From IMG/VR virus record IMGVR_UViG_3300032092_002160, positions 1 to 40,382 of that record: 40,382 nucleotides of DNA; one strand, written 5' to 3'. The position numbers and the translations under genes are program-made. Shown here one piece after another: positions 11,603 to 39,040 of the stretch (positions are counted from its first letter, which is position 1; each line of letters begins with the position of its first letter). The DNA is from a virus. The notes under the pieces are model-generated. The model was not told where the DNA came from, did not search any database, and saw only the letters and a list, made by a program, of their open reading frames with translations.

Positions 11603-11614
11603 CTCGTAAGGGGC

Positions 11615-20524: not shown

Positions 20525-21453
20525 TGGAAGACGACTATCAGCAGGAAGAGGAAGAAAACGCCCCAAGCGGTGGAATGTCTGGCATGGTTCGCCAGAACGC
20601 CCGCATGGATGAAAGCCAGATGAGCGTTGGCGAGCGTAACCTCTCCATGGGCATGAGCCCTTGGGCACACGTCGGCACCAGTCGTGACAATCAAATGTAC
20701 CGACAGGCCATGGTTCAGGCTTCTAAGCCTCAGAAGGCACCAGACCCTCGTCTTAAGGATGCCGAGTTCTACACTGGTCTTGGCGACTACGGCGGTGCTC
20801 AGGCCCTCATGAACAGCAAGGGTGCGGCCCTGTTCAACATGGACGAGGAAATCGAGATTGAGGACGAAGACGAGAAGGGAATGCCAGTTTCAAACAAGTT
20901 TTACGTCGGACCCAAGGGGAACCTAGGGATTAACGGCAAGAACGTCCCAGCGTCTATGCTGGCTCGAAAGTACGGGGTTGGCTCCGTTCCGTTCCGAGGT
21001 GGTGACTTGCAAGCAGTACAGTACCGAGGCCTTGTTGCTAGGGTTCAGAAGTTCACCAAAGACCTCAACTCTCTGAAGAAGATTTACCAAAAGAATACCT
21101 ATCTCGGCACATTTGACCCTTCCGAGGCGTCTGCAATGGCTAGAGCCCTTGAGGCCAGCATCAAGACTGACTATTTGGCCATCATGAAGGACACCAAGGG
21201 TCTTGGCGGCAACGTGTCTGACAATGACATGGCTATCGCTGAAAGCATGGTTCCCCAGAGAGCCAGTAAGGCCATTACCCGTCTTGGCGGGAATGAGATG
21301 GCACTCTTGATGAACGCCAAGAACTCCGCTTTGTCCAAACTCCTTGAAGTGGGTGCAGTCAACGGAATCGAACTCAGAAGCGACAGAAGCCAGCAAAGGA
21401 GTCGCAACATGATGCTTGAGTCCGCAACAAAAGACACTTCAGTCCCTAGATGA
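20524..21453 (+). CDS. Unrecognised virion-associated protein upstream of the giant gene
   Basis: A 309-residue protein starting at ATG 20524, which overlaps the previous stop (TGATG); GTG 20521 is an alternative. The N-terminus is acidic and Met-rich (MEDDYQQEEEEN; about ten Met in 60 residues). The remainder is helical with an acidic insert (DEEIEIEDEDEKG) and a stretch YVGPKGNLGINGKNVPASML, probably a beta hairpin. No family is recognised. It ends with an ATGA overlap with the giant gene, so the two are translated in a coupled way and may form one complex. Confidence 0.65.
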   Translation: MEDDYQQEEEENAPSGGMSGMVRQNARMDESQMSVGERNLSMGMSPWAHVGTSRDNQMYRQAMVQASKPQKAPDPRLKDAEFYTGLGDYGGAQALMNSKGAALFNMDEEIEIEDEDEKGMPVSNKFYVGPKGNLGINGKNVPASMLARKYGVGSVPFRGGDLQAVQYRGLVARVQKFTKDLNSLKKIYQKNTYLGTFDPSEASAMARALEASIKTDYLAIMKDTKGLGGNVSDNDMAIAESMVPQRASKAITRLGGNEMALLMNAKNSALSKLLEVGAVNGIELRSDRSQQRSRNMMLESATKDTSVPR

Positions 21454-24400
21454 TTAACCAGAACCCAGATAACTCTAGGCAAGGCGAAATCGGTGATGAT
21501 GTACTAAATCAGGGTCTAGAGTTAATTAAGTCTGGTTCGCTTCGCTACGCCAGAGAAGAACCAGCACTTCCAGAAGCCCCAGAAGAGGGCTATCTTTCGC
21601 ATGAGCCTACCCCAGATGAGGTCTGGGAGTACATGGCCACGAACAGGAACAGGACATTCGACAAGTCTACCGAGCAAGGCAGACGCATGTACGAACTGTT
21701 TAAGGTGGCTAACAAAGAGCGTAACCAGTGGACGATGGATGTGGTCAAGCAGATGGTTAACACCATTGCCGCCGTACCTGCCAACTTGGTCAATAGTCTG
21801 ATTGAGAACCCCCTTAAGGCTCCTGTTTCGGCATTGGATGGTATCGCCCGTGACGTCCGTGACCTTTACGGCATCCTTGCACAGTCTGAAGACCCTAATT
21901 CGCCTCTGTTTAGGTTCAAGGCTTACATCACTGGCAACGGGACGATTGAGGAAGAAATCGACCAGTTTAACGAGGCTCGATGGTTCAACAACAAGTCTCA
22001 GGAACTTGAAGAAGGCGTTGGCACTGTCCTTGAGGACTTCGTCCCAGAAGATAAGCGTGAGTTCGTCAAGAGCCTCATCGACCCAAAGATGGCTCAGGCC
22101 TTGTCGTACATTGGCCTAGACCTTCCGCACGTCCTGCTTTCTCCACTTAAGGCCAGAAGGGCTATTGGGACGGCACTTAATGCCTACAAAGACCCAGCCT
22201 TGATTGCCAAGGCAATGACCGAGCAGTCCAGCGTAATTAGGGAAAGCCTAGACCTTGCGGCCAGCCGTGGTAAAAACTTCGCCAACAAACTTATTGGCAC
22301 GACCATGTCTGGGGTTGCCGATACTGTGGCGACGCCCTTCCGTGTAATCGAAGAAAAGGCACGTCGTGTCGGCTCTGCCGTCGCAGAAACTAGCGGTCAT
22401 AACCCGACTGTCTTGCGTAACGCCACTTCTACTGTTTTGGCTGACGCTGGAGAAAAGGTGATTGGTGAAGTCGGGGCTATGAGCCCGCTTCGCACGACCC
22501 TGTTCTCGTTCGGCGTAAAGCCTCTAATGGAGTATGCCAGCGTTCTTGGCTCCGAGATTGTCGATGCGGCCCAAGGTGTTGCCGCCATCAAGCCCCAAAA
22601 CATGGGCATGGGAATGCTTGAGCGACTGGCCACCAAGAATGGCTCCCGAATCCCCCTTAGCACCGAAGCATTGGCCGTAGCCAAGTTCACCAATGTTGTC
22701 GTCGGCTGGCCAGCATCCATGGCCATCCCTGTCTTCAAGAGGGCTGTCGGTGATGCCGCCGTGATGGGCACCCTTGGCTATCTTAATGCCCGAGGCGAAG
22801 GTGCGGCTGGTGGCGTTGGCGTCGGCTTTGCTTGGGGTGGTCTTTCTGGCTCCCTACGCCACGTACACAGCGTCTATGAGCACTCCCTTACTCAGAGGAA
22901 CCTAATCGACAATTTCGACAAGGCTCAGATTAACCAGATTGCCAGCGTTAAGCCAGAGAACGCACGTAATTTTGCTGAGGCCACGACTGTAATCGACAGG
23001 CTTAACGACGACAGAGTTTCTTCTACCGCACGTGCATTCATGTCCATGTTGCACACTTCTGACCCAAGCGTGGAGTTCAGGTTCGCTTCTCTTGATGAAG
23101 CCATAAAAGAGTTCGGCGTACCAAACCAGAAGAATGAAATCTCGATGGGCGGGTATAGTTACGGAACTCTTAGCGGTGCCAACCCGAAGGGAATGCAGTT
23201 TTCCAATACCCTTCCAGACGGAACCAACAGGAAGGTAATCTGGATAAACAAGAACTTCTCACAGCCAGAAACTATTGGCCATGAGATTGCACACCAAATT
23301 CTGGACCATGTGTTCAATCTGGACAACGACAACAGCCAGATTGTCAGGCAATTCTTCGGGGATACCAAGGATTCTGGCGTCGTTTCGGACAAGGCCATGG
23401 CCTACCTTATGGCCGATTACACGGCTGACTATTACAAGGCAGACAAGAAGGTGGTCCTAGAGCCACTTGCGTCTAAGTACGAAAAGACGATTGAGATGTT
23501 CAGAAGTCAGATTGACGCTGGAACGCTCAATTGGGACAACCTTCAGGAGGTGATGAATTTCAAGGGGGATGGAACTACCCCATTTGGACTGGGCAACATC
23601 ATCCACGAGTTCTTCGCCTACAACGTATCTAACCAACTTCTTACCAAGTCCCCTGACTACTTCCTGAGAAACCCAGAGGGCGTCAGCCTCAAGGCCCACG
23701 TAGAAAATCTCTACACACTGATGAATCAGCGTGTGGTTTCACGTGCTGAGGAGGCTGGCCTAATCATTAACCACGTCAAGAACGCCGAGTCTGGGAAGAC
23801 TTCTTTCGAAACCTTCATGTGGCAGGACGGCCACTACCGCAGGTTCGACATGCTGGACAACTGGTCCGAGGCAATCATGCGGAAGGCAATGCGTCACGGG
23901 GACGTGAACGTCTCCTTGATGAGCCCAGAACGTGCAAAGGCGTTCTTTGAGGCCAACAACAAGGTTAGGTTCTCCAATGTCGTCAACGGCGGACGTGTAA
24001 TGAAGGACAAGAAGGAGGTTGACCAACTTATCTCGGAAAACGCCGAGCAGATGGTCAAGACTTGGGAGGCAATGCCTCCAGACAAGCGTCCTAAGTTCAT
24101 CAAGGACCAAGGCGGCAACGTGACTGTTGACCTGACCAACGTAAACAAGGAGGCTTGGGATTCCCTTGTCGGCAAGGTCAACATGACCAAGGCCGAACTC
24201 GACGAACTCAAGGGCATCTGCGAAGTCATCCGAGACAATCGTGCTGGCAAGCCAGTGTTCAATACCTTCAGCGGTCAATACCTAGGCCGAACTCATCAGG
24301 TGGAGGCTGGCGGTCTCGTAAAGCGTCTTACTGGCAAGGACGTCCCTGTGACTTATCGCAGGTTCAGCCCATTTGCCGCCGAACTCAAGTTCGACAGGTT

Positions 24401-27400
24401 TGACGAGAACGGGAATCCGATTCGCAATCCTAAAGGGCACGTTACCCTTCATGTCGTTGACGTAGCCGTAATTGACAGGCGTCGCATGAAGATGTGGCAG
24501 AGGGCTGACGTCCGTAGCATTTTCACCGACTTCGGTCACTTTACCCGTACGTTCACGACGTACATGCACAACCTATCTCAGGCTACTGGCATCAAGTTGC
24601 CATCCGAGAAGTTGTTTGCCAAGGAGTTTGGGAGTCAGGCTGGCAAGGTCCGTGACCTGATGTACGAGACCTTTGGTGGTCGTAAGCGTGTTGACGAGTC
24701 TTTCATCAACGTTCCTTCCGACGGCTACACTGGCAACAAGGACGGCCCCAACTACCCATTCCACTCGCTTCGCTTTGAGTTGCTGGCTGGACTTCAGAGG
24801 CAGACCCGAGTCTTTGCCGAGACCTTCGGCAATAACCTAGGCAACCTCCCGTACAACCACATTGAGGCCTATGAGGGCGTTCGACGCAACCTGATGGTGG
24901 GCGGTTTCCGTGTCCATGAACTGGACAATGACCGCAAGTTCTGGTCCAACGGGGCTGGCTACGAGATTCGTGGCGACGCTGGACGCTTCAGGCTGTTCAC
25001 CCCATACGGCAACTCTGTTGGAGTATTCAAGACCCCAGAGAGGGCTTTTGCGGCGGCTGACAAGCATGCCAAGAAATTAGACCTAGCCGACTTTACTCCT
25101 ACCTCTGGCAATGAAGGTGTGACGATTGACGGGGATACCAACATTACCCCGACCATCGCCGCATCAATCAACGGCTCCACCAACATGATGGTTTCTGGTG
25201 GCAGGATTTACAACATGGGCATTCAGAAGGACAACAACTTCGAGTTGTCTAGGTTCAAGAATGCCGTCGCTGGGTTTAGCGACGTTTCTGGCCCTGTTCA
25301 GCAAAATTATAGCGGTACCCTGAATAGAACCTTCCTGTCGAAGATGGGTGCCCCGACCATTACCCTTGGGGAACTGTGCGGCTCTAAGGCTAACAACAAG
25401 AATCACATTCTTTACAAGTACCCTCAACTTAAGGAACTGGTGGTGTACTGCTCCTTGGGTAGCCCTCTTAACGGGGACATTGATGTTCAGTTCGGGATTG
25501 GGCGTCAGACGATGGATGCCATCGGCATCAGCAAGGCTTTGGCGTCGCACAGGAACTTCGAGAAAATCATTGAGGCTGAACTCGCTCCACATCTCCAGTC
25601 TTGGGTTTCTGCCATGGAGGGCGAACTGCCAGCCCACATGCTTGCCTTTAACTTCACGGGCAAAGGGCTTGAATCTGAACTAATGGGAGTTGGCCAGTTA
25701 TCTAACCTGAACAGGGAATTTCTCGCTTACAAGGCCAGCGGAAATCCAAATGCAACGTTTAAGGATTTCTTGGGAGACGTTGCTTCAAAGAAGGCCAATG
25801 ACGTTGCCTACGATTACATCAATGCGACCAAACTTAGCCAAGCGGAACAACAAAGGATTAACTCAAACATTCCAACATGGGGTGCAGGTGGTAACTATGT
25901 TAAGTCTATCTGGGTCATGGGAGCCGATGACTATGGTCTCGGTGCAAGAGGTAGGAACAAGGTAGTAACAAAGAAGGACAAAAACGGGAGGCTTCTGTAT
26001 TCCCTCGACGATGCCCAGCAAAAGGCCGTAAACGATTTCTTCCTGAAGATAGTGCAGTCATTTACTGGCACCAATCCTTCATCCTATTCCATGAACGTGA
26101 TGGGCAGGAACGTCTACCTAGTTGACCCAAAGGTGGTTGATTTGAATACGCTAATCCCAATTTTTAAGCAACTTGATGCGGTAAACGTTGGAGATGGCAA
26201 TAACCTGAAAATGGCCATTGTAAGAGAGTTGCAGAACGCAGAAGGATTCCTTCATGCCATTTCAAAAGACCCAAGTAGGCGTGTAAATAGTAGGGGGGTA
26301 TTTGACCAAGGTGCGGCAGATTCAAATAGGGCTATGATGGCACTTGGTTTTACACAAAACGCAGTAGTCATAGACAAGGATGCTCAAGGAGTACCAGCAA
26401 GATGGACTGGAGAAGCAGACATTCCAATGCAAGTCGCACTTCTTGCTAATGGTGTCGGAGATTACTCGATTCTTCAACTTCAGGGCGGTTCTGACCCAGC
26501 ACTTCAGACTACTTCCGAACTAATCATCCACTCAAAGTTTATCCCAATCACAGTTAAGAACATTTTGAGTGCATCCAGCGACGTCAAGGGGCTGATGAAC
26601 CAAGTTCAGGCAATTGCTGGTAAGTTCCCATACAAGTCTGGCGAGACAATCATGTCGGTCAACATGTCCATGGCTATGCTTAGGCAGTCCCCGTTCTTGG
26701 ACTATGATTACGGCACAAAGAAGTACATCGGTACTGGCTCTCTGCATGATGCGTATGCCAATGGGTTGCATGTCATGCTTCTTCAGAGCGTGGCACAAGA
26801 CCTTCTTCCTAACCTTTCCCAGAACGACCTAGCCCAGTTGGCTACGACCCAAGGGGCTGAGAAGTTTGTTCGTGCGACGTTCGACATGGAGCAGAACGGG
26901 AAAGCCTACTTTGCCAGACAGATTGGTATGGCAGTTCAGCAGATTCTTACTGGTACGGACGTAATTAGCGGCAATGGGCAAAGCCTCGCTAACGTTGCCA
27001 TGGTCATGGGTAACATCGGTAGCGACGCAAATCTTACCCAGTTCATGTCAAACCCTGACACGCTTGGCCCTACCATGGTCAACGCTGGCTACGCAAAGTT
27101 GATGAAGGTTGCCATGTTTGCTGACACTTCGGTGATGAAGAACGCTTTTAAGAGCAACCTGTTCCAGAACGACAAGTCATCTAAGTTCAACAAGTTCACC
27201 AACGCACTTGGGACTCTCACCAAGAACACGCTTGAGGCCTCTGGGGTTAAACTCCACGAGCCACGACCAAGCGTCAGGGGTGGCTATGGCACGTCTCCAA
27301 ATCCCAAACTGATGGTCGGTGGCTACCAGAACTCCACCAATGCCCGCATGCAGGAGATGATTGACCTCGGCATGGCTCGCCAAATCAGGACCGACGCTGG

Positions 27401-30400
27401 CAAGATTTACCATGCGTTCGAGTTTACAGACGCCGACTCCCAGTTGAAGTTGGAGTCCGCCAGAGGTGAACTGCACCTGTTGCCACTACTTGGCGGCTAC
27501 GGGCTGGACGACACCGCTACCGAAGGTCTGGACAATGTAGCCAACCGATTCTTCGACGAGTACCTGAAGGCTCGTGCATCCAACGACAAGGCGGCTATGG
27601 ACCAAATTGTGGCCCGCCTTTCTTACATCAAGTTGTCTGACCTGTTGGACCACAAGTTGCTGTACAACTTCTACCCCAACCTGAAGAACGTGATGGTCGG
27701 GTTCAGCACTGGCTATGATGCCAGTTATGCCCCTAACATTAACAAAATCACCATCGGCATTGACCGACTGATTGGGGACGAGGTTAACAGACGTATCGAA
27801 GCCAACAAGATTCCTACCAGCATCTTTGAGGATGGCCCAGACAGGGGTACACGTGCCCTTCTTCTTCACGAGATTCAGCACTCCATCCAGAAGGTCGAAG
27901 GCTGGACTGATGCTTACTCGGTAAACAACCTCGAAGACTTCAACGTTGGTGCCATCAGATTTCTCGTTGGTGAAATCATGGGCAACAAGGAGGCTGTTGG
28001 CGTCTCTAGGGACGTCTTGAGCAACAAGGACATTGATTTCCTTGAGAAGTACTTTGGTCCAGACGCCAAGATTGGAACTAAGACCCCTCTTGACGTCCTC
28101 AATGCAGTCAGGCGTTTGATTGACTCGCCTATGCACAAGCAAATCAGTGCGTTTGCCTTGCCAGCGGTGATGCGTGTGGTCGGCCAGATGGTCTTGGCGG
28201 TATCTGACGCTTACGGGGAAATGTCCGAGTCGCACCCTGAACGCAAGAAGGCACAAGCGGTTGTAAGGGACTTGGAGAACATTCATCGTAAGGTTAACCA
28301 GTACAACCAGATGATTAAGGACGGCACGGCATCTCCGAATGACGTGTACGTGGCACTTACCAAGCGTGGCGGCATCATCGAGGCTATTGGAGACATGCAA
28401 AACAGGTCTTACAGCCTTGGCGACTCGCCAATCGCAAAAGCCCTGTTCAACGACATGTCCTATGCCAATAGGTACCTTGCCGAGTCCCTGTCGCTACTCC
28501 AGCAGAACGAGTCCCTCAAGGCACTCACTGTCGGGGACACCAACGGGCAGATGCTGGCCCTACGCCAGATTGCCGACACCTTGTCCGACATGCACTACCA
28601 CGGCATGCGGAACGAGATTGAGGCCAACATGACCGAACGCAGGAGCAAGATGAGCCAAGCCGAACTGAACAAGTCTGGCCTGTCTCCCTCTGGCGAGCGA
28701 ATCAGCGGCATTGAAGGCTTTGAAGGTCCATTGGATGTTGGCGTTGGTGGCAACAGCCTCAGGAAACTCGGCTTGGCTATCGCCGAAAAGAAGTCCGTAC
28801 GCTCCCTGATGTTCGGTCAGAACCCCAACCTGATGGTTGGCGGTCTTGGCCTTGGCATGAGTGCCTTTGACGCCACCAGACAGGGCGGAATGACGGACAA
28901 CCTTCGAGTCCTAGAAACGCTTGGAAGATTGGCCACTGTTTCCCACAGCATCAAGGCCATCAACGATGACCTTAGTGCCCTGAAATTGTACGGGTTTACC
29001 AGCCGTGGCTGGGAGGTAGATGCCGAGACTGGCAAGATTTCTCTCGTCTACAAGAAGGGTACCATGAAGGGTACAAAGGACTTCGATGCGGTAGATGCAG
29101 ATGAACTGAATCTCAGGGACAGGATGCGTCGTGGCAGGGATGCTGGTACTGGCACCATGTCTATCGCTAGCAACGATGGCGAGTTCGTAATCGTCAATGC
29201 ACTGGACAAGGAAAACAAGGGTACGCTCAACATCGAGCAACTTGCCAGCCTGTTGGATGCCAAGATTGAACTGATGGAGTCCATCGAGACTCCAGTTGAG
29301 GCAGTCAACATCATCATGGATGACCCTGACTTCCCACCAGTCATCTTGGCTGACAACATCGTATCCTACCTTGCTGGCCGTGGCGTATCTGCGGACGGCA
29401 TTTCTCTGTCAAACGCAGAGTCAATCGCCAAGGTATTTGTAGGACAAAATCTCACCAAGGCGGAATTGGTCAACATCATGGCCTTCTTCCACCAGCAGTT
29501 GGTGGACGAAATAACCTACGGAAGCAAGGAGTCGTTCATCGCCAAGGCCACCGAAAAAGCCATGTCGGTGGTCAATCGTGAGAGTGGTCTTACCATGACC
29601 GAGGCCCTTTCTGTTCTTGAGTCTGGGTTTGCTGGAGATGTAAGCAACACCGCAACTTCTATTCTTACTGGTAACGAGAATACTACTGGAGAGTTCTACC
29701 ATGTTGCTTCCAAGGACGAGGACTCCAAGCAACTTGGATTGTTTAGAGCCAGACGTGGCATCCTTAGGTTTGAATTGAGAAAGCCAACTTTCATCTCTCA
29801 GGCAGATTGGGATAGTTGGGTAAGTGAGCGTCTTGGCAGGACAAAGTACCTGAAGAAAGAGAAAGGCGGGAACTATTACCTCACTGGCGAGTCGTTGTCC
29901 TCAAGCGAGATTCGAACCAATCAAAACAACACCGCAGATTTGCATGCCGCCGCCAAGCAATTGAACAGGCGTCTCGCAAGAAAACTGGTGTTGCTTAAGC
30001 CCTTCATCGAAGGGATGACTAGTTACCTTAGGTCTGCTGATTTCGCTACTCTTTCCCAGAACACTAAACGCACCGCATTGTTCTCGTTGCTGGACGAGAT
30101 GTACAAGGACTCGATTAAGGTGAATCCTTACTCGGAATCCGACAAGCATCAGGCAAGGAATGAAATCAGAAGGATGCAAAGCGACAGGGATGACTTTGGT
30201 ACCAGTGGATTTAGCGAGTCCGTTTCGAGACTGCTTTACCCAGACGAGGTGACGACTCCAGATTCCATTGCCAAGCATGGCAAGCCATTGCCAAGGTTCG
30301 GCACTGAGACCCTTAGCCGTAGCGTGATTGGCACTTCCGCAGACCCTAACTCGATTCTTTTCAACACAAGGTCCATCTTGTCCCCAATCGTCGGTTTGAC

Positions 30401-33400
30401 TGCGGACAGGAACATTGGCTTCAGGAGTTATCGTGACGTTGAGCCTGAAGTCCTTAAGGCGAATCTTGGTCAGGTAATCCACAAGGTATTCTATTACAAC
30501 GACGAGTTCTTTGGCCAAGTCTACGGAGTTCCGCACGACCTTAGCCAGTTCTACCTGAACCATGTCGTAGCCTCGTCTTATCTTTATGCTTGGGGCAATT
30601 ACCTGTCTTCCGAAGCCCAGACTTACAACCTTGAGGCAATGCCAGTGGATAACATCGCTGAGATTGTCAAAAAGGTGTATTCGCTTTCTGCCCTTGCTGG
30701 GGAGTTGGAGATGCGTCACGTGCTTTCTCTCCAGAACATCAGTCCTAGGGCACTGCCAATCACGATTAACCCAGAAAGAAGGAGCAAGTTGTTCAGGGAT
30801 ACTAGAAACAACACAACTTGGCAGGGGCAACAGGTTTACAAAGATGCAATGGCTCTTGATGCAAGCGTCGTCTCCGCCACCAATGGTTACGTCTCAAAGG
30901 CTGGGGAAGTTGTCATTACGGATTCTAGGCTGGCACAAAGCCTAGCGGCCAATCAGGTGGGCAAAATCGAGAGCATTCCAGTCCCAGTCAAGGGCAAAGG
31001 TACGCCGATTGAGATGATTCACAAGGCCGAGCGTGTTGGTGCCATGGTTCACTTCGAGGACATGAAACTCCGAGACTACCTGTTCGGCACTGTCTATGGC
31101 GAAGGCCGTGTCCTTAGGTCTGGCACCAGCGTCGTAAGCAAACTTCTGGAAATCAGAAACAGCCTATCCTCCAACACTGAATCTCCTAGGAAATCTCTCC
31201 CGCAAAAGAGAGACAAGTCTGCGATGATGTGGAACGGGACGCATGCCCTGCATTCGTCCATGTACTTCTCTGCGGTCACTAACGGAATCGACAAGAGTGC
31301 CCTTACTCGTGCCGTCAGCAATACTCCATTTCTGATAGACATTCTTCAGAACCACAACAAGTACGCACTTCCGTTTGATGCCCATACTGTAAACGCCGCC
31401 TTGGCTCCTCTTGTGCTTACGGCAATGGCGGAGAAACAGGCGTACATCTATCAGGGCAAGGTTGTAGAGGGCGATTTCCTCCTTCCAGAACAAAGGGCGG
31501 CATTCAATGCAATCGTATCTGGAGAGCCTACTCCTACGTTGCCAGCGTTTTGGGCTACATTGGAGGGCTGGCAAAAGAACCACATCTTGGGATACTTCAA
31601 CAACAACAATGTCGTTCACACGTTCGACAACCTTGTTGGTGCAATGTCGGCCAAGTCTATTATCGAGCGTCTCAAGACGGCTGAAGCGGGTTCACTGACG
31701 GCCATGGATGCCCTGTTCGCCAACGCTGGCGGATTCGTAAAAGCCATGGAAAACGCATTGGATACGTATCTTTCGCATGATGCGTTCTGGTGGGAAACTG
31801 GCGTCCAAGGTGGTGCTCCGTTCCTAGACACTTCCGAGGGCAACTACGGAATCAACAGGATGCACGACAACGTTACCATGTTCTTCGCAAGGGCTGGCGA
31901 AGGACTGGAGCACGTGAGCAACCATGAGTTTGCTGGGTACGTAATTGCACTAAACAGCGTACCAGCCTTTGACCATGTCGAGACTGCTACTGTTGGCGGT
32001 CTTACCATTCCCTACACTGAAGCGACTGGCAACGAAATCAGGGGTTCTGGACGCAGGTTTGTGTTCGGACAGAATGTTCAGACCGATAAGGGTCTGGAAT
32101 TTGTTAAGGCAAGCGGCTTCTTCGGAAGTGGCACTCCGTTCATCAACCTAGGAGAACAAATCAATGCTGGTAACGAGATAATCTTCCCAAGAACTGGCGG
32201 CGTTTCCTCTGCACGTTCCATCTTGGACAACAAGAACAACTACGAGTCTTTCGTTACCCGTTCGCCTCAGTTTAAGTTGGTTCCCTCCGACAAGGGTGGC
32301 ATCGCCTCCCAGATTCTCGCTGGTAGGCAGGAACTGACAAAGTCTGGTATTTCTTCCCTTCTTGAAGACCAACCTTCAACTGGAGTAAACCTAAGGGAGC
32401 ATAAGTTCAGCAAGCGTGGCGTTGGCCTCACTTCCGCATTCATGCGTAAGCAGATGGTCGATGGTATCATCAGGGAGGCCAGACGTGCCAACAAGGAGTC
32501 GGCTGTCATCGAGCCAGCCAGATACAAGTTGTCTGGCAGAATTAAGCCGAACCTTAACATCATGGCCGCTGAGAGTGATGCCACTAAGGCTCAATACCTA
32601 TCTGAACTTGCCATCTACGGGGCGACTTCAATCTCTCCTACTCCGTACACTATCGTTCAAGGGGCTCAAGACGTAGACAGCAACAAGTTGCCTTTGATTT
32701 CCGCTCCGTTTGGTCACAAGCCTTCGTACGGGTTCGCGTTCAAGAAACTCTCGGATGGTAGCACTGTCGTTAACGTGACTGGCGACCACTTCTCCCACAA
32801 GTACATGCTCAAGTCCTCCAGAAAGGGCATCTATCAGAAAAAGTCGTACTTTGGTTTCAACATTCAGGAAGGCTTGGGGTACAATCCGAACAATGGACTG
32901 ATGACCCCGTCTGCGTTCCAAGGCGTCAGCATGGGAATGAAAACAGATGTTGAAGGCATCCCAGATGCAGTACTTGCCTATGCCCAGTTTGGCGGTCCTG
33001 CTTGGGTTGATGAGATAATCAAGGTAGCAGACCACACGCTTGCCAACGGGATTAGCGAAACGAGAGTTGAAAACAACGTCCTCGCTGGCACTGGCGATGT
33101 TCTGGTCCAAGGCGTACACAAACAGGCGTTGCTTGATGGGACGTTTGCTGGAAGCGAAGACAAACTGGTTCCAGCCTATGAGATGGCTCGTCATGGCATT
33201 AGTCATAATTACATGACATTCACCTTCCCTCCAAACACCCCTCCAGAGGTAATGAAGGGAACTCTGATGCTCCTGTTTGCAAGCAATGCTTCTATTGAGT
33301 TGGCCAGATGGAATGCGTCTGCTTTTGGCGGGTACACGTTGAGTTACTACGGCAAAGATGGAGTTGGGTCTGGTCTAGGAAAAGCCCAGATGGATTACAT

Positions 33401-36400
33401 CAAGTCTGGAAGTCGTCGTTCACTTACTCCCGATGGAAGTGCCATGAACGCCCAGAGCATGAACACGTTGTTCAAGGAAACCCTTAATCTATCCACCAAA
33501 AAGGCCACATCCAGTTCCCTTCCGCTTCAGGACATTTGGGCTCCGTTCAACTTGATGAACCAGTCCGAACTCAATGGGCACCTTGATACCCTCATGGGAA
33601 TGATTGTCGGCAAGGACCATGGGTACTTCCTGCCGCAGTCCGAAAAGCAATTGATTGCCAGCGGCGACACCAAGGTTGCCATTGAGGCCATGTTCCCGAA
33701 CAGGCCTGATTTGCTCGATTACGCTTGGGACAATGAAAGCACTGGCGACGTCTCCATCGTAGAGCAAAAGGACAAGAAGAAGAAGGTCACTGGCTACCTC
33801 ATTGGCTACAACATCCAGACTGGCTATGACGAGGCTGGCAACAAGACCTATGCCCGTCGTGTCGTTTCCGCCCGCACCCGTGCCGAAGCCGAGGCAATCA
33901 AACTCAAGTTCACTGTAAGCACCAGTAAGGCTGAACTTGCGATGGCCATCGAGCGAATCTCGAACAACGGGGGACAGGCAATCAAGTTGAACGCTTTGGA
34001 CGCTGGCAACGTCGTGTTCGAACCTATGACCAACAGGGTGGCGTCCCTCGGGTCGGATGGTGTTCTGACATACAAGAAGGCCGACACACAGACTGTCGGA
34101 CACACCGACAAGCCAATGTCCGCCCAGATGGCCGAAGCGATTGCCAATACGCTGGCTCAGAATCAGGGCCTAAGCGTCAACATCGGTCAGCCTACCGCCA
34201 ACCTGATGGTGGGTAACAGGAACAGCATGGACTTGGAGGCTTCGCTTCGTCGTCGCATCCAGTTCGGTTCTGGCCTTGGTCCGATTGAGTTCTCCTCCAG
34301 ACTCATGAACGCCATCGCTTACGGCAAGTTGAAGAACAAGCCAGAGCACATGGCCTACCCAGCGACCCTCACTGGTGCCGAGTGGTTCAAGTTCCTCAAG
34401 GAATCTCAGGTGAGCAAGGACGAGTTTAGGCAGACTGGACTTGTCACGCTACTGCATGCCAACAAAGACCAGCAGATTTCCAGACAGGAACTGGCTGAGT
34501 TCGTCCACACAACCTACCCGTCCACCTATCGAATCTCTAGGCACACCAACCCAATCGTCGAGGAATCTGATGCCAGTACCTTCAGACTTCCTTGGGGCGA
34601 GGACATTGCCACCAAGGAAAATCAGGTGCTCAAGGACTTGTCCACGAACCTGATTGTAATCGGTGACGCCATCGACTCGGCAATCAAGCCAGACACCACT
34701 CCAGAAGCCATCGCCGAAATCGAGTTGCTCAAGAAGTCCATGATGACTGCGTTGGACACACTCATCAAGGAAGCCAACTTGCCAGCGTCAATCAAGGAAC
34801 GTGCGACCATGGCTGGCGTGTTCGAGTCCCTTAAGGAAGAAATCGAAAAGCAGGTGTCGTCCGACAATCAGGACAGCGTCGTGAGGTTCGGTAGCCAAAG
34901 GACCATCAGGCCGATGCAGTTGAACTACCTGTACAAGACCTTCATCGAGTCTCGCATGGAGTCGCTGAATACGATGGCCCTTGATTACTTTGGTGGCCAT
35001 GACGGGCTTCAAATCCAAGACCCGTATTCCTACTTGAAGATGGATACGTTCATGATGGACCCTGATGCCAACAAGAAACTGTTTGGTTTCAGCGTCAACG
35101 AGTCCTACAACCCGATGGGTCCGTACACCCGAAATACTTGGGACTTGGGGTTGATGATGAAGGTGAATCAGAACAACCACAACTCCTACGCAACGGCCTT
35201 TGGTCAGTACACGTCTTCCGTGATGCAGTCCGAAATCATGGGCCCTAAGACTCAATTGATGTTTGATTCTTACAGGGCTGAACTTGATGAAAGGCTCAAG
35301 AAGACAAACAACCCAGAGGACATTCGCAGGATTAGGTCCATTCAGGCTTCCCTAGACCGAGTCAGAGAGGCCCGCATCGCAATCAACCACAACTACAACT
35401 TCAACGATGCTAGCCACTACTCTGGCAACCCGAACAGCACGTTCCAGTTGGGCCACCTGCGTGAGACAGTCACCATCAAGAACGCAGAACTTGGGTTGTT
35501 CACCTTTGGAGACAAGAAGTTCGTCGGCGGCGATAAGTTGACCGACCCAGTCTCTGGTGTTCAGGGTAAGCCAGAGCCAGTCATCGTCATCGAGGAGATT
35601 CAGTCTGATACCTTCCAGAGATACGAAGTGTCTGCCGCTGGTAAGCAGGAGATGGCACTTCCAGACTCGTTCGAGCAAGTCGAAGGGATACTCCGTGCTG
35701 GCGACTTGGCTAATGTCAGCAAACAAATCGAGAAACTGGAGACGCTGCTTCAGAACAACGAGTCTTGTGTTAAGTCGCAAATGAACTCCCTGAGCACAGT
35801 AAATGGGTACACGACAAAGTTCGATGCGATTTTCCTGCGTACCCTTGCCAAATCGTTGCTCAACCCGTTCGAAGTCTATTCCCTTTACAGGGCCTACTAC
35901 GAGACCCTGAAGGAAAGTCACCACGACGAGATGACCTCTAGCCAATTCAATGAGGTCTTCGTCAACACTGGCAGAACTGTAAAGCCCAGCGGGAACTACG
36001 CCCACATGGCTGAGACCACTCCAGAAATCCCAGTCTATGAGATTGATTTCGATGCTCTGGATAGGATTAGCAAGAGTCTAGATACCAGCCTTTACGACAA
36101 GAACTCTCACTTGTACAAGGTAATGAACCTGATTGGTGCTGAGGCTTCGGTCATTCTTGCTAAGACGATTTACGCAAACTCCCCGTCGGTACTCCATGGG
36201 GTCAAGAGGTCGATGCTACCACACGCCCAAATTGCTGGCTGTATCGTTCCTATCGTTGGGATGATGGATGAGGTCGCCGCATCAATGGGCAAGATGGCAG
36301 ATACAATCAACGACGCCGTTTCTTCTGATTTGATTGATTATGACATGGTCGGCGGAAAGGTGATTCAGTGGGTCAAGGACAGGATTAAGTTCTTGGAGTC

Positions 36401-38414
36401 TGGGAACGCAGTAGATGGTGATGGCGTCATCCCTTCGAGAATCCAGCACAAGGCACTTACGGCTCTTGCACAGACGCTTGAGCAGATGAGCAAGGAAAAC
36501 CCAAATAACTTCCGCATTCCAGCCATGGACATTTCCGGGGAACCCATCATCGCCAAGAACGGCGTGATGAGCATTGGTAATGTTTACGGCGATGACAATG
36601 GCGGCACGTCAATGGTAGAGATGATTACCTACGAACGTGCATTGTACGATGAATCTGGTTCTTATGTCGCTGGCAGAGTGTCGGAGGGCAAAAGGTATCA
36701 ACTCATGAAAACGAATGCTAGGTCTGCCCTTGGGGTTGCCGTTGCACACGCCGTCAGGCCTTGGGCAATCCGTGGTTCCATTGACGTGATTCCTGCACAA
36801 ATCAAGGAACTCAAGGCCAAGCAAGCGGAGTTGGCTAAGATGGTCCCGATTAACCCAAGTAAGGAGGGCTCGACCATTATCAATACATCCATGCCGTTTG
36901 GCGTTGAGGACATTTACAAGCCAGTATCCCTGAACGCCACCATCATTCGTGCGGCGGCTAGGGGCATGGACTCTATCATCCTTTCGGATGCTAGACACAT
37001 GTTCAACAGAGGGTACAGCCCGAACGAATCGTTCAGGACTCCATACCTAATCTTGGGCCGACGTCGCCGACTATTTCAGGTTCCAGACCTGATGAAGCCG
37101 TTGGCCGCTACGATTGCCCACATGAGCATGTTTGAGAACTCATCTGGGCTGTACGGGAATCTGATTGGGCGTTTCAAGGAGATGCCAGACGTCGAACTTG
37201 AGCAGATTCTCGCTGGCAACAAGTTCACGCATGAGGGTAATGACCTAACCCTTTACCACCACTTTGGTAAACTTACCGAGCAGTTCCTTGGCTTCGTCTA
37301 CGCAAACGGCACACCTGAATACAATACGCCGTTTACCTTGGATTCCGTCTACCAGACTGGAACCGACGGCGTCCTGAGGTTGCCATTCAATCGTGATTCT
37401 TCGGACTCGCTTGGTAGTGCGATGACGGATGAGAACGGGAAGCCACTCAATCCTGCCAAGGTGGACGAGAACAGCCTTATCGGAAGATTGTTCGCCCGAG
37501 AAAAGCGTCGTGTCCAGCAAGCCTTCAAGAGCATGGGTTCCTTCGCTCTCCTCACCGAGAACGGAGATTGCATGGGGTATGTATCCAACTACGGGCTCCC
37601 GTCCTATTGGCTTGAGGCTCACTTCGCTGGTGCCGAGCGTTCGCTGATTGATTTCTACGCCACGGATGCGTTCGACATGCCAGTGCTTGACTACCAAGCC
37701 GATACTGGAACCTACAACATCGTCGATGCCAAGACTGGCAAACTGATTAGAGCCACCAAGAACAAGGCGGAGGCCTTGGAGGTGTTCCACCAAAGCAAGA
37801 AGTACAGGGGTGGCAATGGGTACGTCGGCAACTTCCTCAAGAACTGGTCTGGCCTTGGCGGGTACGTTGGTACCGCATTCTACTCTGGTGCTACGAGTAG
37901 CAATGGGCTTAGCGAAATCAGCAATACCAGTGCTGGCTTTGCCGCTACTGAAAGACTGCTACGCACTCCTGTGATTCCAAAAGAACTCGCAATTTCTAGG
38001 AGCGACGTATCTGTTGAACTTTCAGATGACAAGGCGAGGACTCTTGTCACCGAACAGCGTCAAAGCCGCCCAGACAAGCCCGTTTGGGCCAACAACCCAG
38101 CCAACAACAAGTTCAGGAAACTCCAGTACATTGCACGTGGCTTGATGACCAGCAAACAGGTGACTCAGTTCGAAACCATGATTGCTTCCGCCAGCGGTAC
38201 CATGATGAGGTTCAAGCCAAGGTTCCCGACGGAGGCACACAAGACGGCGTGGCGTAAGCGAGCCATCGAAGGCATCGCAAACCTGATGCCGAGCAATACG
38301 CCCGACTACCGCCCGAAGCCTACGGCTGGCAACCTAGACCTGCTCAAGCGTATCTCCGAGTTCCGCAGGGCACCAATCGAGAATCAAGATGATGAGTCCG
38401 AGACCTCCCGTTGA
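21450..38414 (+). CDS. Giant multidomain polyvalent-type protein, 5,654 residues
   Basis: A single uninterrupted frame of 16,965 bases, starting with an ATGA overlap. Visible modules: residues 413-472, hydrophobic Gly/Ala-rich; 545-730, a zincin-like metallopeptidase with HEIAH (611-615) and candidate third ligand Glu720 in HEFFAYN; 2050-2180, a second one with KLSDLLDHKLLYNFYP, then LLLHEIQHSIQ (His2140, His2144), Glu2175 in VGEIMG a candidate third ligand; about 4645-5190, a module with FQLGHLRE, then VIVIEEIQSD (4715-4720) and GMDSIILSDARH, shared by phage 'polyvalent' proteins. The motif LMVGG or close variants recurs at 1147, 1245, 1951, 2460 and 4251, with NLNIMAAE at 3701 a weaker match. 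Much of the rest is unrecognised. Position after internal-protein genes and before lysis suggests a virion protein delivered with the DNA, as with N4 vRNAP; this is inferred. No polymerase motif was recognised. Confidence 0.95.
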   Translation: MINQNPDNSRQGEIGDDVLNQGLELIKSGSLRYAREEPALPEAPEEGYLSHEPTPDEVWEYMATNRNRTFDKSTEQGRRMYELFKVANKERNQWTMDVVKQMVNTIAAVPANLVNSLIENPLKAPVSALDGIARDVRDLYGILAQSEDPNSPLFRFKAYITGNGTIEEEIDQFNEARWFNNKSQELEEGVGTVLEDFVPEDKREFVKSLIDPKMAQALSYIGLDLPHVLLSPLKARRAIGTALNAYKDPALIAKAMTEQSSVIRESLDLAASRGKNFANKLIGTTMSGVADTVATPFRVIEEKARRVGSAVAETSGHNPTVLRNATSTVLADAGEKVIGEVGAMSPLRTTLFSFGVKPLMEYASVLGSEIVDAAQGVAAIKPQNMGMGMLERLATKNGSRIPLSTEALAVAKFTNVVVGWPASMAIPVFKRAVGDAAVMGTLGYLNARGEGAAGGVGVGFAWGGLSGSLRHVHSVYEHSLTQRNLIDNFDKAQINQIASVKPENARNFAEATTVIDRLNDDRVSSTARAFMSMLHTSDPSVEFRFASLDEAIKEFGVPNQKNEISMGGYSYGTLSGANPKGMQFSNTLPDGTNRKVIWINKNFSQPETIGHEIAHQILDHVFNLDNDNSQIVRQFFGDTKDSGVVSDKAMAYLMADYTADYYKADKKVVLEPLASKYEKTIEMFRSQIDAGTLNWDNLQEVMNFKGDGTTPFGLGNIIHEFFAYNVSNQLLTKSPDYFLRNPEGVSLKAHVENLYTLMNQRVVSRAEEAGLIINHVKNAESGKTSFETFMWQDGHYRRFDMLDNWSEAIMRKAMRHGDVNVSLMSPERAKAFFEANNKVRFSNVVNGGRVMKDKKEVDQLISENAEQMVKTWEAMPPDKRPKFIKDQGGNVTVDLTNVNKEAWDSLVGKVNMTKAELDELKGICEVIRDNRAGKPVFNTFSGQYLGRTHQVEAGGLVKRLTGKDVPVTYRRFSPFAAELKFDRFDENGNPIRNPKGHVTLHVVDVAVIDRRRMKMWQRADVRSIFTDFGHFTRTFTTYMHNLSQATGIKLPSEKLFAKEFGSQAGKVRDLMYETFGGRKRVDESFINVPSDGYTGNKDGPNYPFHSLRFELLAGLQRQTRVFAETFGNNLGNLPYNHIEAYEGVRRNLMVGGFRVHELDNDRKFWSNGAGYEIRGDAGRFRLFTPYGNSVGVFKTPERAFAAADKHAKKLDLADFTPTSGNEGVTIDGDTNITPTIAASINGSTNMMVSGGRIYNMGIQKDNNFELSRFKNAVAGFSDVSGPVQQNYSGTLNRTFLSKMGAPTITLGELCGSKANNKNHILYKYPQLKELVVYCSLGSPLNGDIDVQFGIGRQTMDAIGISKALASHRNFEKIIEAELAPHLQSWVSAMEGELPAHMLAFNFTGKGLESELMGVGQLSNLNREFLAYKASGNPNATFKDFLGDVASKKANDVAYDYINATKLSQAEQQRINSNIPTWGAGGNYVKSIWVMGADDYGLGARGRNKVVTKKDKNGRLLYSLDDAQQKAVNDFFLKIVQSFTGTNPSSYSMNVMGRNVYLVDPKVVDLNTLIPIFKQLDAVNVGDGNNLKMAIVRELQNAEGFLHAISKDPSRRVNSRGVFDQGAADSNRAMMALGFTQNAVVIDKDAQGVPARWTGEADIPMQVALLANGVGDYSILQLQGGSDPALQTTSELIIHSKFIPITVKNILSASSDVKGLMNQVQAIAGKFPYKSGETIMSVNMSMAMLRQSPFLDYDYGTKKYIGTGSLHDAYANGLHVMLLQSVAQDLLPNLSQNDLAQLATTQGAEKFVRATFDMEQNGKAYFARQIGMAVQQILTGTDVISGNGQSLANVAMVMGNIGSDANLTQFMSNPDTLGPTMVNAGYAKLMKVAMFADTSVMKNAFKSNLFQNDKSSKFNKFTNALGTLTKNTLEASGVKLHEPRPSVRGGYGTSPNPKLMVGGYQNSTNARMQEMIDLGMARQIRTDAGKIYHAFEFTDADSQLKLESARGELHLLPLLGGYGLDDTATEGLDNVANRFFDEYLKARASNDKAAMDQIVARLSYIKLSDLLDHKLLYNFYPNLKNVMVGFSTGYDASYAPNINKITIGIDRLIGDEVNRRIEANKIPTSIFEDGPDRGTRALLLHEIQHSIQKVEGWTDAYSVNNLEDFNVGAIRFLVGEIMGNKEAVGVSRDVLSNKDIDFLEKYFGPDAKIGTKTPLDVLNAVRRLIDSPMHKQISAFALPAVMRVVGQMVLAVSDAYGEMSESHPERKKAQAVVRDLENIHRKVNQYNQMIKDGTASPNDVYVALTKRGGIIEAIGDMQNRSYSLGDSPIAKALFNDMSYANRYLAESLSLLQQNESLKALTVGDTNGQMLALRQIADTLSDMHYHGMRNEIEANMTERRSKMSQAELNKSGLSPSGERISGIEGFEGPLDVGVGGNSLRKLGLAIAEKKSVRSLMFGQNPNLMVGGLGLGMSAFDATRQGGMTDNLRVLETLGRLATVSHSIKAINDDLSALKLYGFTSRGWEVDAETGKISLVYKKGTMKGTKDFDAVDADELNLRDRMRRGRDAGTGTMSIASNDGEFVIVNALDKENKGTLNIEQLASLLDAKIELMESIETPVEAVNIIMDDPDFPPVILADNIVSYLAGRGVSADGISLSNAESIAKVFVGQNLTKAELVNIMAFFHQQLVDEITYGSKESFIAKATEKAMSVVNRESGLTMTEALSVLESGFAGDVSNTATSILTGNENTTGEFYHVASKDEDSKQLGLFRARRGILRFELRKPTFISQADWDSWVSERLGRTKYLKKEKGGNYYLTGESLSSSEIRTNQNNTADLHAAAKQLNRRLARKLVLLKPFIEGMTSYLRSADFATLSQNTKRTALFSLLDEMYKDSIKVNPYSESDKHQARNEIRRMQSDRDDFGTSGFSESVSRLLYPDEVTTPDSIAKHGKPLPRFGTETLSRSVIGTSADPNSILFNTRSILSPIVGLTADRNIGFRSYRDVEPEVLKANLGQVIHKVFYYNDEFFGQVYGVPHDLSQFYLNHVVASSYLYAWGNYLSSEAQTYNLEAMPVDNIAEIVKKVYSLSALAGELEMRHVLSLQNISPRALPITINPERRSKLFRDTRNNTTWQGQQVYKDAMALDASVVSATNGYVSKAGEVVITDSRLAQSLAANQVGKIESIPVPVKGKGTPIEMIHKAERVGAMVHFEDMKLRDYLFGTVYGEGRVLRSGTSVVSKLLEIRNSLSSNTESPRKSLPQKRDKSAMMWNGTHALHSSMYFSAVTNGIDKSALTRAVSNTPFLIDILQNHNKYALPFDAHTVNAALAPLVLTAMAEKQAYIYQGKVVEGDFLLPEQRAAFNAIVSGEPTPTLPAFWATLEGWQKNHILGYFNNNNVVHTFDNLVGAMSAKSIIERLKTAEAGSLTAMDALFANAGGFVKAMENALDTYLSHDAFWWETGVQGGAPFLDTSEGNYGINRMHDNVTMFFARAGEGLEHVSNHEFAGYVIALNSVPAFDHVETATVGGLTIPYTEATGNEIRGSGRRFVFGQNVQTDKGLEFVKASGFFGSGTPFINLGEQINAGNEIIFPRTGGVSSARSILDNKNNYESFVTRSPQFKLVPSDKGGIASQILAGRQELTKSGISSLLEDQPSTGVNLREHKFSKRGVGLTSAFMRKQMVDGIIREARRANKESAVIEPARYKLSGRIKPNLNIMAAESDATKAQYLSELAIYGATSISPTPYTIVQGAQDVDSNKLPLISAPFGHKPSYGFAFKKLSDGSTVVNVTGDHFSHKYMLKSSRKGIYQKKSYFGFNIQEGLGYNPNNGLMTPSAFQGVSMGMKTDVEGIPDAVLAYAQFGGPAWVDEIIKVADHTLANGISETRVENNVLAGTGDVLVQGVHKQALLDGTFAGSEDKLVPAYEMARHGISHNYMTFTFPPNTPPEVMKGTLMLLFASNASIELARWNASAFGGYTLSYYGKDGVGSGLGKAQMDYIKSGSRRSLTPDGSAMNAQSMNTLFKETLNLSTKKATSSSLPLQDIWAPFNLMNQSELNGHLDTLMGMIVGKDHGYFLPQSEKQLIASGDTKVAIEAMFPNRPDLLDYAWDNESTGDVSIVEQKDKKKKVTGYLIGYNIQTGYDEAGNKTYARRVVSARTRAEAEAIKLKFTVSTSKAELAMAIERISNNGGQAIKLNALDAGNVVFEPMTNRVASLGSDGVLTYKKADTQTVGHTDKPMSAQMAEAIANTLAQNQGLSVNIGQPTANLMVGNRNSMDLEASLRRRIQFGSGLGPIEFSSRLMNAIAYGKLKNKPEHMAYPATLTGAEWFKFLKESQVSKDEFRQTGLVTLLHANKDQQISRQELAEFVHTTYPSTYRISRHTNPIVEESDASTFRLPWGEDIATKENQVLKDLSTNLIVIGDAIDSAIKPDTTPEAIAEIELLKKSMMTALDTLIKEANLPASIKERATMAGVFESLKEEIEKQVSSDNQDSVVRFGSQRTIRPMQLNYLYKTFIESRMESLNTMALDYFGGHDGLQIQDPYSYLKMDTFMMDPDANKKLFGFSVNESYNPMGPYTRNTWDLGLMMKVNQNNHNSYATAFGQYTSSVMQSEIMGPKTQLMFDSYRAELDERLKKTNNPEDIRRIRSIQASLDRVREARIAINHNYNFNDASHYSGNPNSTFQLGHLRETVTIKNAELGLFTFGDKKFVGGDKLTDPVSGVQGKPEPVIVIEEIQSDTFQRYEVSAAGKQEMALPDSFEQVEGILRAGDLANVSKQIEKLETLLQNNESCVKSQMNSLSTVNGYTTKFDAIFLRTLAKSLLNPFEVYSLYRAYYETLKESHHDEMTSSQFNEVFVNTGRTVKPSGNYAHMAETTPEIPVYEIDFDALDRISKSLDTSLYDKNSHLYKVMNLIGAEASVILAKTIYANSPSVLHGVKRSMLPHAQIAGCIVPIVGMMDEVAASMGKMADTINDAVSSDLIDYDMVGGKVIQWVKDRIKFLESGNAVDGDGVIPSRIQHKALTALAQTLEQMSKENPNNFRIPAMDISGEPIIAKNGVMSIGNVYGDDNGGTSMVEMITYERALYDESGSYVAGRVSEGKRYQLMKTNARSALGVAVAHAVRPWAIRGSIDVIPAQIKELKAKQAELAKMVPINPSKEGSTIINTSMPFGVEDIYKPVSLNATIIRAAARGMDSIILSDARHMFNRGYSPNESFRTPYLILGRRRRLFQVPDLMKPLAATIAHMSMFENSSGLYGNLIGRFKEMPDVELEQILAGNKFTHEGNDLTLYHHFGKLTEQFLGFVYANGTPEYNTPFTLDSVYQTGTDGVLRLPFNRDSSDSLGSAMTDENGKPLNPAKVDENSLIGRLFAREKRRVQQAFKSMGSFALLTENGDCMGYVSNYGLPSYWLEAHFAGAERSLIDFYATDAFDMPVLDYQADTGTYNIVDAKTGKLIRATKNKAEALEVFHQSKKYRGGNGYVGNFLKNWSGLGGYVGTAFYSGATSSNGLSEISNTSAGFAATERLLRTPVIPKELAISRSDVSVELSDDKARTLVTEQRQSRPDKPVWANNPANNKFRKLQYIARGLMTSKQVTQFETMIASASGTMMRFKPRFPTEAHKTAWRKRAIEGIANLMPSNTPDYRPKPTAGNLDLLKRISEFRRAPIENQDDESETSR
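23082..23639 (+). other. First metallopeptidase-like module of the giant protein
   Basis: Residues about 545-730. A beta strand (KVIWINKNF) leads into PETIGHEIAHQILDH, a zinc-binding HExxH helix with the general base Glu612. About 105 residues on, IIHEFFAYN supplies Glu720, placed like the third ligand of many phage-encoded zincins. The catalytic layout is complete, so activity is plausible. Its substrate could be peptidoglycan stems, host proteins or the giant protein itself. Confidence 0.6.
24888..24905 (+). other. NLMVGG tag, copy 1
   Basis: Residues 1147-1152 of the giant protein, in the context VRRNLMVGGFRV. It falls at the end of the first large module and directly before a small beta/alpha segment. 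Confidence 0.6.
27300..27323 (+). other. LMVGG tag, copy in NPKLMVGG
   Basis: Residues 1951-1958 of the giant protein (context TSPNPKLMVGGYQN). It lies about 100 residues before the second metallopeptidase-like module. Confidence 0.6.
27597..27989 (+). other. Second metallopeptidase-like module (LLHEIQHSIQ)
   Basis: Residues about 2050-2180. KLSDLLDHKLLYNFYPNLKN followed by a beta stretch and LLLHEIQHSIQKVEGW is a pattern I know from phage and mobile-element polyvalent proteins, where it reads as 'LgdvLDHp-LfxaYPxL' then 'tLLHEiQHxIQ'. It keeps both His and the Glu of HExxH. Glu2175 in VGEIMG is a candidate third ligand. It is separate from the first HEIAH module by about 1,500 residues. Confidence 0.65.
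28821..28844 (+). other. NLMVGG tag, copy in NPNLMVGG
   Basis: Residues 2458-2465 of the giant protein (context FGQNPNLMVGGLGLG). It follows the end of the second metallopeptidase-like module and its helical extension. Confidence 0.6.
34200..34214 (+). other. NLMVG tag, last copy
   Basis: Residues 4251-4255 of the giant protein (context GQPTANLMVGNRNS). It precedes the region that contains the EEIQSD module. Confidence 0.55.
35382..37019 (+). other. EEIQSD polyvalent module
   Basis: Residues about 4645-5190. The order HYSGNPNSTFQLGHLRETVT, EPVIVIEEIQSD, then much later VSLNATIIRAAARGMDSIIL matches the widespread 'N-x-x-x-HxR ... vl-x-IEEIQSD-x-xQ ... K-x-x-l-x-xAxexGxDxIxw' layout of phage polyvalent proteins. 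The biochemical role of this module is not established to my knowledge. The gap between the EEIQSD part and the last block is longer than usual, so an insertion may lie in between. Confidence 0.6.
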
Positions 38415-38736
38415 AGATGACCTGATGCGTAACGCCGAGAGCCTACGCCAAGGCGGATGGATTGTGTCCGTGCTTGGTGCGGCTGGCTCGCTCTGCCGTC
38501 TGCTCCTAACTAACGAGGAACTGCCTGTGGCTATCTGGTTCAGGCGTGTGCTTGCTGGTGCCATCGTAGGCGTCCTGAGTTTCTTTGTGATTCACGGACG
38601 CATTGAGCCACTCAACGAAGCCATCTTCTATGCTGTCTGTGGTACAGCCGCCCCAGAACTGGTAGAGTTCGCCAGACGCAAACTTCTTAACCGCCTCGAA
38701 GATGAAACCAAAACCACAAAGCGTAAGCGTCGCTGA
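38389..38736 (+). CDS. Holin-like membrane protein
   Basis: A 115-residue protein (ATG 38389, or ATG 38392) overlapping the end of the giant gene by 26 bases. Three hydrophobic segments are visible: 23-40 (GWIVSVLGAAGSLCRLLL), 53-70 (RVLAGAIVGVLSFFVIHG) and 78-97 (AIFYAVCGTAAPELVEFA). The tail is strongly basic (KTTKRKRR). Small size, several membrane helices, a charged tail and the position before other lysis genes point to a holin that opens the inner membrane for the endolysin. The Gly/Ala-rich third helix resembles LydA-type holins, which I note with caution. Confidence 0.7.
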   Translation: MMSPRPPVEDDLMRNAESLRQGGWIVSVLGAAGSLCRLLLTNEELPVAIWFRRVLAGAIVGVLSFFVIHGRIEPLNEAIFYAVCGTAAPELVEFARRKLLNRLEDETKTTKRKRR

Positions 38737-39040
38737 AGCCATCATCATCACGCAGTCCATCTTCCTGTGCCTTGTGGGCCTTGCGGGTTGGATGGCTTCG
38801 GCTCCCGTTAACGAGGGTTTCGTCGCTTTGAGGGATAGGGATAGTGCGGTGGCAATCGTGACGGACAATGGACTGACGACGGACAAGACTACTGTTGATT
38901 TACGAAACGTTGAGAAAGTGTTGAAGAACTACGAGACTGTGTGCCTGACGATTGGGGCAATAGGTCTGATTGTTCTTGTGGGCACTGTTGGTCGTGCCTA
39001 CATTAAGCCCCATGGAAAAACTCAAAAGCCTCGCCGTTGA
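38702..39040 (+). CDS. Two-helix membrane protein of the lysis block
   Basis: A 112-residue protein with membrane segments at about 11-32 (AEAIIITQSIFLCLVGLAGW) and 79-99 (TVCLTIGAIGLIVLVGTVGR), separated by a polar loop of about 45 residues, and ending in a basic tail (KTQKPRR). It overlaps the holin-like gene by 35 bases, and GAAG directly precedes the ATG. Two helices with a soluble loop could be a second holin, an antiholin or an inner-membrane partner of the lipoprotein. No family is recognised. Confidence 0.6.
   Translation: MKPKPQSVSVAEAIIITQSIFLCLVGLAGWMASAPVNEGFVALRDRDSAVAIVTDNGLTTDKTTVDLRNVEKVLKNYETVCLTIGAIGLIVLVGTVGRAYIKPHGKTQKPRR

Follow-up and report, generated by a model that had tools for sequence, protein, structure and literature searches.

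Viral polyproteins and the substrates of prohead proteases are cut at many sites that share one common recognition motif. Processing of ejected proteins by a prohead protease is described for Salmonella phage SPN3US (PMC10052503). For the polyvalent proteins (Iyer et al. 2017, PMC5512222) the sections of that survey on zincins predict that these domains process the proteins, name no cleavage sites and describe a HEXXXH variant of the zincin motif. Burkholderia phage JC1 gp69, a Bcep22-like protein of 4,515 residues, is represented by 51 unique peptides in purified virions (PMC9144972), and Pseudomonas phage 8P (8P_023) encodes a protein of 5,145 residues at the same genome position as the giant considered here. 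With the former confirmed by mass spectrometry (MS) and the latter in the same position, giant virion proteins are already a known kind. Among the open-licence papers searched we found no description of a tagged phage polyprotein.

Genome context and the giant frame

The window, by which we mean the whole stretch of DNA analysed (40,382 bases), is an incomplete virus record and near-complete relatives are longer. The terminase large subunit (TerL), the SU10-type portal and head proteins and a weak SU10-type adaptor place the phage among the short-tailed SU10-like viruses (Table 1). A first-pass annotation, made from the sequence alone, had proposed a short-tail block and this agrees with the matches of portal, major head protein and, below threshold, adaptor to SU10-type podovirus families; the giant sits in the late virion operon of this SU10-like podovirus. 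It closes the morphogenesis block and small membrane- or lipoprotein-like genes come next (38389..39811), for which there was no Pfam match above cut-off. At the position of the giant C75C1 (TerL 33%) has shorter genes, which gave no family-profile match in the stretch compared, part of the first gene lying outside it.

Elsewhere in the window, positions 2230-2712 encode a RusA-type endodeoxyribonuclease (PF05866, 3e-19) and 13036-13827 a 263-residue protein with a collagen-like repeat (PF01391), which is probably part of a tail fibre. Two genes of the virion block, 17831-19678 and 19682-20524, a short way upstream of the giant, start with long low-complexity repeats of arginine, glycine and serine (RGG type) and their products are possibly disordered internal proteins that touch DNA. 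An open frame of 482 residues antisense to the major capsid gene (10190-11638, minus strand) is probably due to chance.

The giant gene is a single open frame of 5,654 codons starting with ATG (21450-38414, plus strand). It occupies 16,965 of the 40,382 bases of the record (42%), and it shares four bases with the gene upstream (20521-21453) and 26 with the one downstream (38389-38736), all as first claimed. A search of IMG/VR with TerL gave 80 related loci. The first 2,900 residues of the giant match 22 of 25 TerL-related records, some 20 of which carry a giant frame, and no internal stop is present in any of these ~20 frames. Full-length versions comprise 5.4-6.5 thousand residues and in relatives of ~46-52 kb the gene accounts for 35-40% of the genome. 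Two of the 22 depart from this: G025 has a frame of 1,575 residues and G012 lacks sequence; a deletion was rejected as the cause of the shorter giant of G012, which we attribute to a gap in the sequence between contig ends. In G016 a 123-bp terminal repeat marks completeness and the giant frame continues across the join. The reading of G001 as a closed circle was dropped.

The giant gene is under purifying selection throughout, with a whole-gene dN/dS of 0.14-0.37 in five pairs; in the four pairs analysed by block, no 500-residue block reaches 1. Since the frame is unsplit and stop-free in about 20 relatives and constrained in this way, it is neither a chance occurrence nor an assembly error. 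Close relatives, compared for a division into ordinary enzymes, keep the giant unsplit. No giant was found in bacterial genomes, either of prophage or host. The protein is longer than the virion RNA polymerase (vRNAP) of phage N4, as the first-pass annotation observed, but its size is not without precedent given the JC1 and 8P proteins.

Table 1. Positions of the virion and lysis genes and of the modules, zincin sites and tags of the giant protein in the window.
Feature	Position	Strand	Basis or remark
Terminase large subunit	4753..6381	+	phrog_2 3e-19; PF03237 1.4e-7
Portal protein, SU10 type	6569..8800	+	PF23899 1.2e-13
Major capsid protein, SU10 type	10181..11602	+	PF17236 3.3e-37
Head-tail adaptor, SU10 type	11986..12738	+	PF24175 1.9e-4; 22.4 bits, below cut-off of 27
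Giant polyvalent-type protein, 5,654 aa	21450..38414	+	Open frame; relatives; purifying selection
Module 1, aa 1-1147	21450..24890	+	N-terminal core common to short relatives; zincin 1
Zincin-1 HEIAH, aa 611-615	23280..23294	+	Motif; Peptidase_M78 E 0.02-0.04, below cut-off
Tag 1 LMVGG, aa 1148-1152	24891..24905	+	Recurrent tag; AF2 coil, pLDDT<50
Module 2, aa 1153-1245	24906..25184	+	Minidomain, beta-sheet and helix
Tag 2 MMVSG, aa 1246-1250	25185..25199	+	Absent from clade E/F; AF2 low-confidence coil
Module 3, aa 1251-1953	25200..27308	+	Variable slot; 3-4 lineage-dependent families unlike one another
Tag 3 LMVGG, aa 1954-1958	27309..27323	+	AF2 coil, pLDDT<50; identity breakpoint in several pairs
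Module 4, aa 1959-2460	27324..28829	+	Zincin-2 module; kin in Pseudomonas phages 8P and E220 and in ctsTn925
Zincin-2 HEIQH, aa 2140-2144	27867..27881	+	Kept in every giant covering the site
Tag 4 LMVGG, aa 2461-2465	28830..28844	+	AF2 coil, pLDDT<50
Module 5, aa 2466-4251	28845..34202	+	No Pfam, PHROGs, NCBIfam or PDB match above threshold
Tag 5 LMVGN, aa 4252-4256	34203..34217	+	Recurrent tag
Module 6, aa 4257-5611	34218..38282	+	Conserved EEIQSD
EEIQSD motif, aa 4715-4720	35592-35609	+	EE[IVLF]QSD in every giant spanning the site
Tag 6 LMPSN, aa 5612-5616	38283..38297	+	Precedes 38-aa tail
Putative lysis cassette, three small genes	38389-38736, 38702-39040, 39044-39811	+	Position; hydrophobic or lipoprotein-like starts

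Modules, zincin sites and the variable slot

The giant has at least six modules and library assignment was obtained for the zincins alone. Scans of the giant and its relatives against Pfam, PHROGs and NCBIfam gave sub-threshold matches only, used solely as support for zincin 1. Sequence searches of the PDB and Foldseek fold searches with the parts tested returned nothing significant, and matches to the colicin D RNase were scattered and weak, with E>1 only. Adenine methylase and SNF2 helicase modules (DarB-like) are absent from the Pfam and NCBIfam scans of the giant; the same NCBIfam scan does detect methylase and helicase modules in 8P and JC1.

Clade E/F has the HEXXXH form of the zincin-1 site, the variant described for polyvalent proteins, against HEXXH in A/B, C and D; to regard zincin 1 as lost in E/F would be wrong. 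In profile searches the zincin-2 module matches the giants of ctsTn925 (2e-11), E220 (1.6e-6) and 8P (3.7e-5), and its HEXXH lies within a helix preceded by three strands in the AF2 model. Zincins of the polyvalent kind are thus indicated by module matches in the case of zincin 2 and by the conserved motif in that of zincin 1, for which the Pfam match is below threshold. The AF2 models are of moderate confidence and derive from shallow alignments. The model of residues 580-1270 was matched in BFVD by Foldseek to proteins of uncultured phages, with E between 3e-18 and 2e-11; among the six best matches four are named LPD/ART-PolyVal (large polyvalent), one NAT_SF and one is uncharacterized. For the parts modelled, the structural search proposed in the first-pass annotation therefore returned BFVD matches and no PDB fold match. 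The giant lies beside late virion genes and, with its zincin sites and structural match to phage proteins annotated as LPD/ART-PolyVal, is a polyvalent-type protein, as had been suggested, and a new member of that kind. The EEIQSD motif of module 6 may echo one found in other phage polyvalent proteins. The most conserved region is residues 950-1140 of module 1.

Comparison by blastp places each module other than module 3 in one family. Module 3, of ~700 residues between tags 2 and 3, falls into separate groups by lineage, between which distant homology is possible. Breakpoints in identity between pairs coincide with tags in many cases, at 1954 (L115/L116 and window/L109), 1245 (L125/L171) and 1153 (L110/L111); others fall at 1190-1230, within or after the minidomain of module 2.

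More distant relatives (TerL 62-64%) have versions of the giant of 1.5-4.9 thousand residues. Those of 1.5-2.4 thousand residues include the N-terminal core and the minidomain that follows tag 1, present in one or two copies, and have an FMP tag of their own. Their zincin-like site is similarly placed but only weakly similar to zincin 1 (i-Evalue 0.005-0.3). One short relative (L182:6228-11162) has five FMP-type tags, and two intervals between them match a free-standing protein of 129 residues, gp127 of Mycobacterium phage Stark, and a free-standing methyltransferase of 225 residues from Dickeya phage JA33 (JA33_190). The module formed by residues 1057-1274 of L182 is also held by a 6.1-kb gene of Caulobacter phage Jess A (L193) annotated as 'lysis protein', a label that may be misleading.

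The repeated tag and its variation by lineage

The more surprising feature, overlooked in the first-pass annotation, is the presence of co-varying tags at the junctions. On aligning relatives an LMVGG-like pentapeptide was spotted at residues 1148, 1246, 1954, 2461, 4252 and 5612. The pattern [LMF]M[VIL]GG occurs 31 times in 20 giants against 0.9 expected from shuffles. Searches of whole giants with clade-specific tag patterns lead to six shared places in clades A/B, C and D and to five of them in E/F; no clade has more than two further recurrent places. Constraint on the tag is loose, in that position 4 may be G, T, S, A, K or R and position 5 G, D, N or S.

Similarity among tags was first judged with hand-picked cores by permutation of lineage labels (0/2000) and, because the cores had been picked by hand, an unsupervised test of alignment columns was added. 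Five columns in which methionine is conserved in A/B are serine throughout E/F, and these are position 2 of the five tags retained there. With later-added sequences included, this position is methionine in A/B in 17/17, 16/16, 17/17, 16/16 and 15/15 cases and serine in E/F in 11/11, 9/9, 9/9, 9/9 and 7/7; none of 13 other conserved-methionine columns makes the switch (Fisher 1.2e-4). Clades C and D have Q or M. The clades are monophyletic on a tree constructed without the tags. A single deep branching of that tree separates M from S, so the joint change of zincin 1 and tag counts as a single phylogenetic event.

Tag copies within one genome use different codons, with serine drawn from both codon families, and no homology was found between their flanks. 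Remnants of a duplicated domain and gene conversion are ruled out on these grounds, which argue instead that selection acts on the peptide by way of a single partner common to all copies. The simplest reading of the sequences is that such a partner would recognise all copies at the peptide level. Among other genes of the window the tag appears once, as LMMLGN in the portal, and a general prohead-protease site is ruled out for this reason. The four tags that were modelled (1-4, AF2 from shallow alignments) all lie in low-confidence coil; indel density at the tags is not distinctive. As in a polyprotein, a motif shared by module boundaries co-varies by lineage.

Processing, delivery and comparison with known systems

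Does the giant enter the virion, and what might read its tags? The late position after the head-tail genes, as in the MS-confirmed JC1 gp69 and in 8P_023, points to a protein that would be carried in the head and delivered to the host. The co-variation suggests, at the level of sequence, that the tag marks where the protein is cut up. The tags would then be recognition sites of one protease, releasing pieces that act separately, and cutting may occur inside the head or once the protein has entered the host. Zincin 1, acting in cis, would be the leading candidate since the deep split that separates M from S tags also separates its HEXXH from its HEXXXH form, and since the short relatives combine their FMP tags with a similarly placed zincin-like site; it is possible that zincin 2 or a protease acting in trans is responsible instead. 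Module 3 could be an exchangeable cargo freed between two cuts. We judge the chances to be even that the whole chain holds, namely that the giant is a polyvalent polyprotein packaged in the virion, co-injected with the DNA and cut at co-evolving tags. More tentative, and short of an even chance, is the version in which a virion polyprotein with its own metalloprotease undergoes at least six dispersed cuts, tags and protease co-evolve, and one slot of exchangeable cargo is delivered to the host.

The main rival treats the tags as docking motifs that would pin each module to the same repeated partner, which could be a chaperone or a protein of the inner core or scaffold and would assist packing or threading of an uncut giant. 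Docking accounts for the co-variation as well as cutting does, for what is needed is one common partner and not necessarily a protease. According to PMC5512222, N4 vRNAP enters the virion without being processed, and the tag is hydrophobic and glycine-rich in the manner of short linear binding motifs. However, all four tags that were modelled are in linkers and fall on the boundaries of swaps, two zincins are conserved, and in a short relative the modules set off by tags are known elsewhere as free proteins; we consider docking possible though rather doubtful. If there were no common reader at all, this would be an ordinary giant polyvalent ejection protein with tags that are conserved linker or module-start sequence. 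Tagless polyvalent giants do exist (JC1, E220), but M and S switch together at five sites that lack homology and use different codons, and they do so again in later-added sequences; together with the permutation of lineage labels (0/2000) this disfavours that explanation and renders it improbable.

Other readings concern the nature of the protein itself. That it acts inside the cell as a late protein and is not part of the virion would fit the family search, which recognises no tail or core domain; yet the gene directly follows virion genes, there is an MS-confirmed precedent in the same position and versions as short as ~1,500 residues keep the N-terminal core, making this very unlikely. An N4-like virion RNA polymerase diverged past sequence recognition would suit the size class, the short-tailed phage and a long late gene with a zincin like that of N4 vRNAP. 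The first-pass annotation had seen no polymerase motif and this held, in that family profiles gave no match at E<=0.01 to residues 1-3008 of N4 vRNAP and PDB sequence and fold searches gave none in the parts tested; such a polymerase is scarcely credible.

Were the preferred reading, cutting at the tags, correct, the concerted evolution at five or six junctions would provide exact candidate cut sites together with a candidate protease. The tags would define the delivered units, and the modules between them could be expressed as natural pieces.

Processing of the SPN3US type differs from what is predicted for this giant, to which, among the genes of the window, the tag is confined apart from the portal LMMLGN. 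N4 vRNAP is likewise the product of a giant late gene in a short-tailed phage and has a zincin site, but the present giant shows no similarity to residues 1-3008 of this polymerase, and the N4 protein is reported to be packaged unprocessed (PMC5512222). With the polyvalent proteins as characterised in the zincin sections of that survey, the giant shares zincin hub domains, the late virion context and the LPD/ART-PolyVal structural match; it differs in having candidate co-varying sites and in that most of its modules are unassigned. The Bcep22-like giants of JC1 and 8P resemble it as single frames after the head-tail genes and near the lysis genes, and the zincin-2 module is common to 8P and the present giant. 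They differ in carrying an adenine methylase and SNF2 helicase, neither of which was found here, and 8P has PLxRFG. PLxRFG was rejected as an equivalent repeated tag, being a single 681-residue domain in 8P, and no repeated tag was found in the MS-confirmed Bcep22-like giants, 8P or E220. What is new is the co-varying tag architecture and putative cargo slot within a polyvalent giant. In the present family a single protein takes up 35-40% of a genome of ~50 kb, above the 22-24% of the confirmed Bcep22-like giants.
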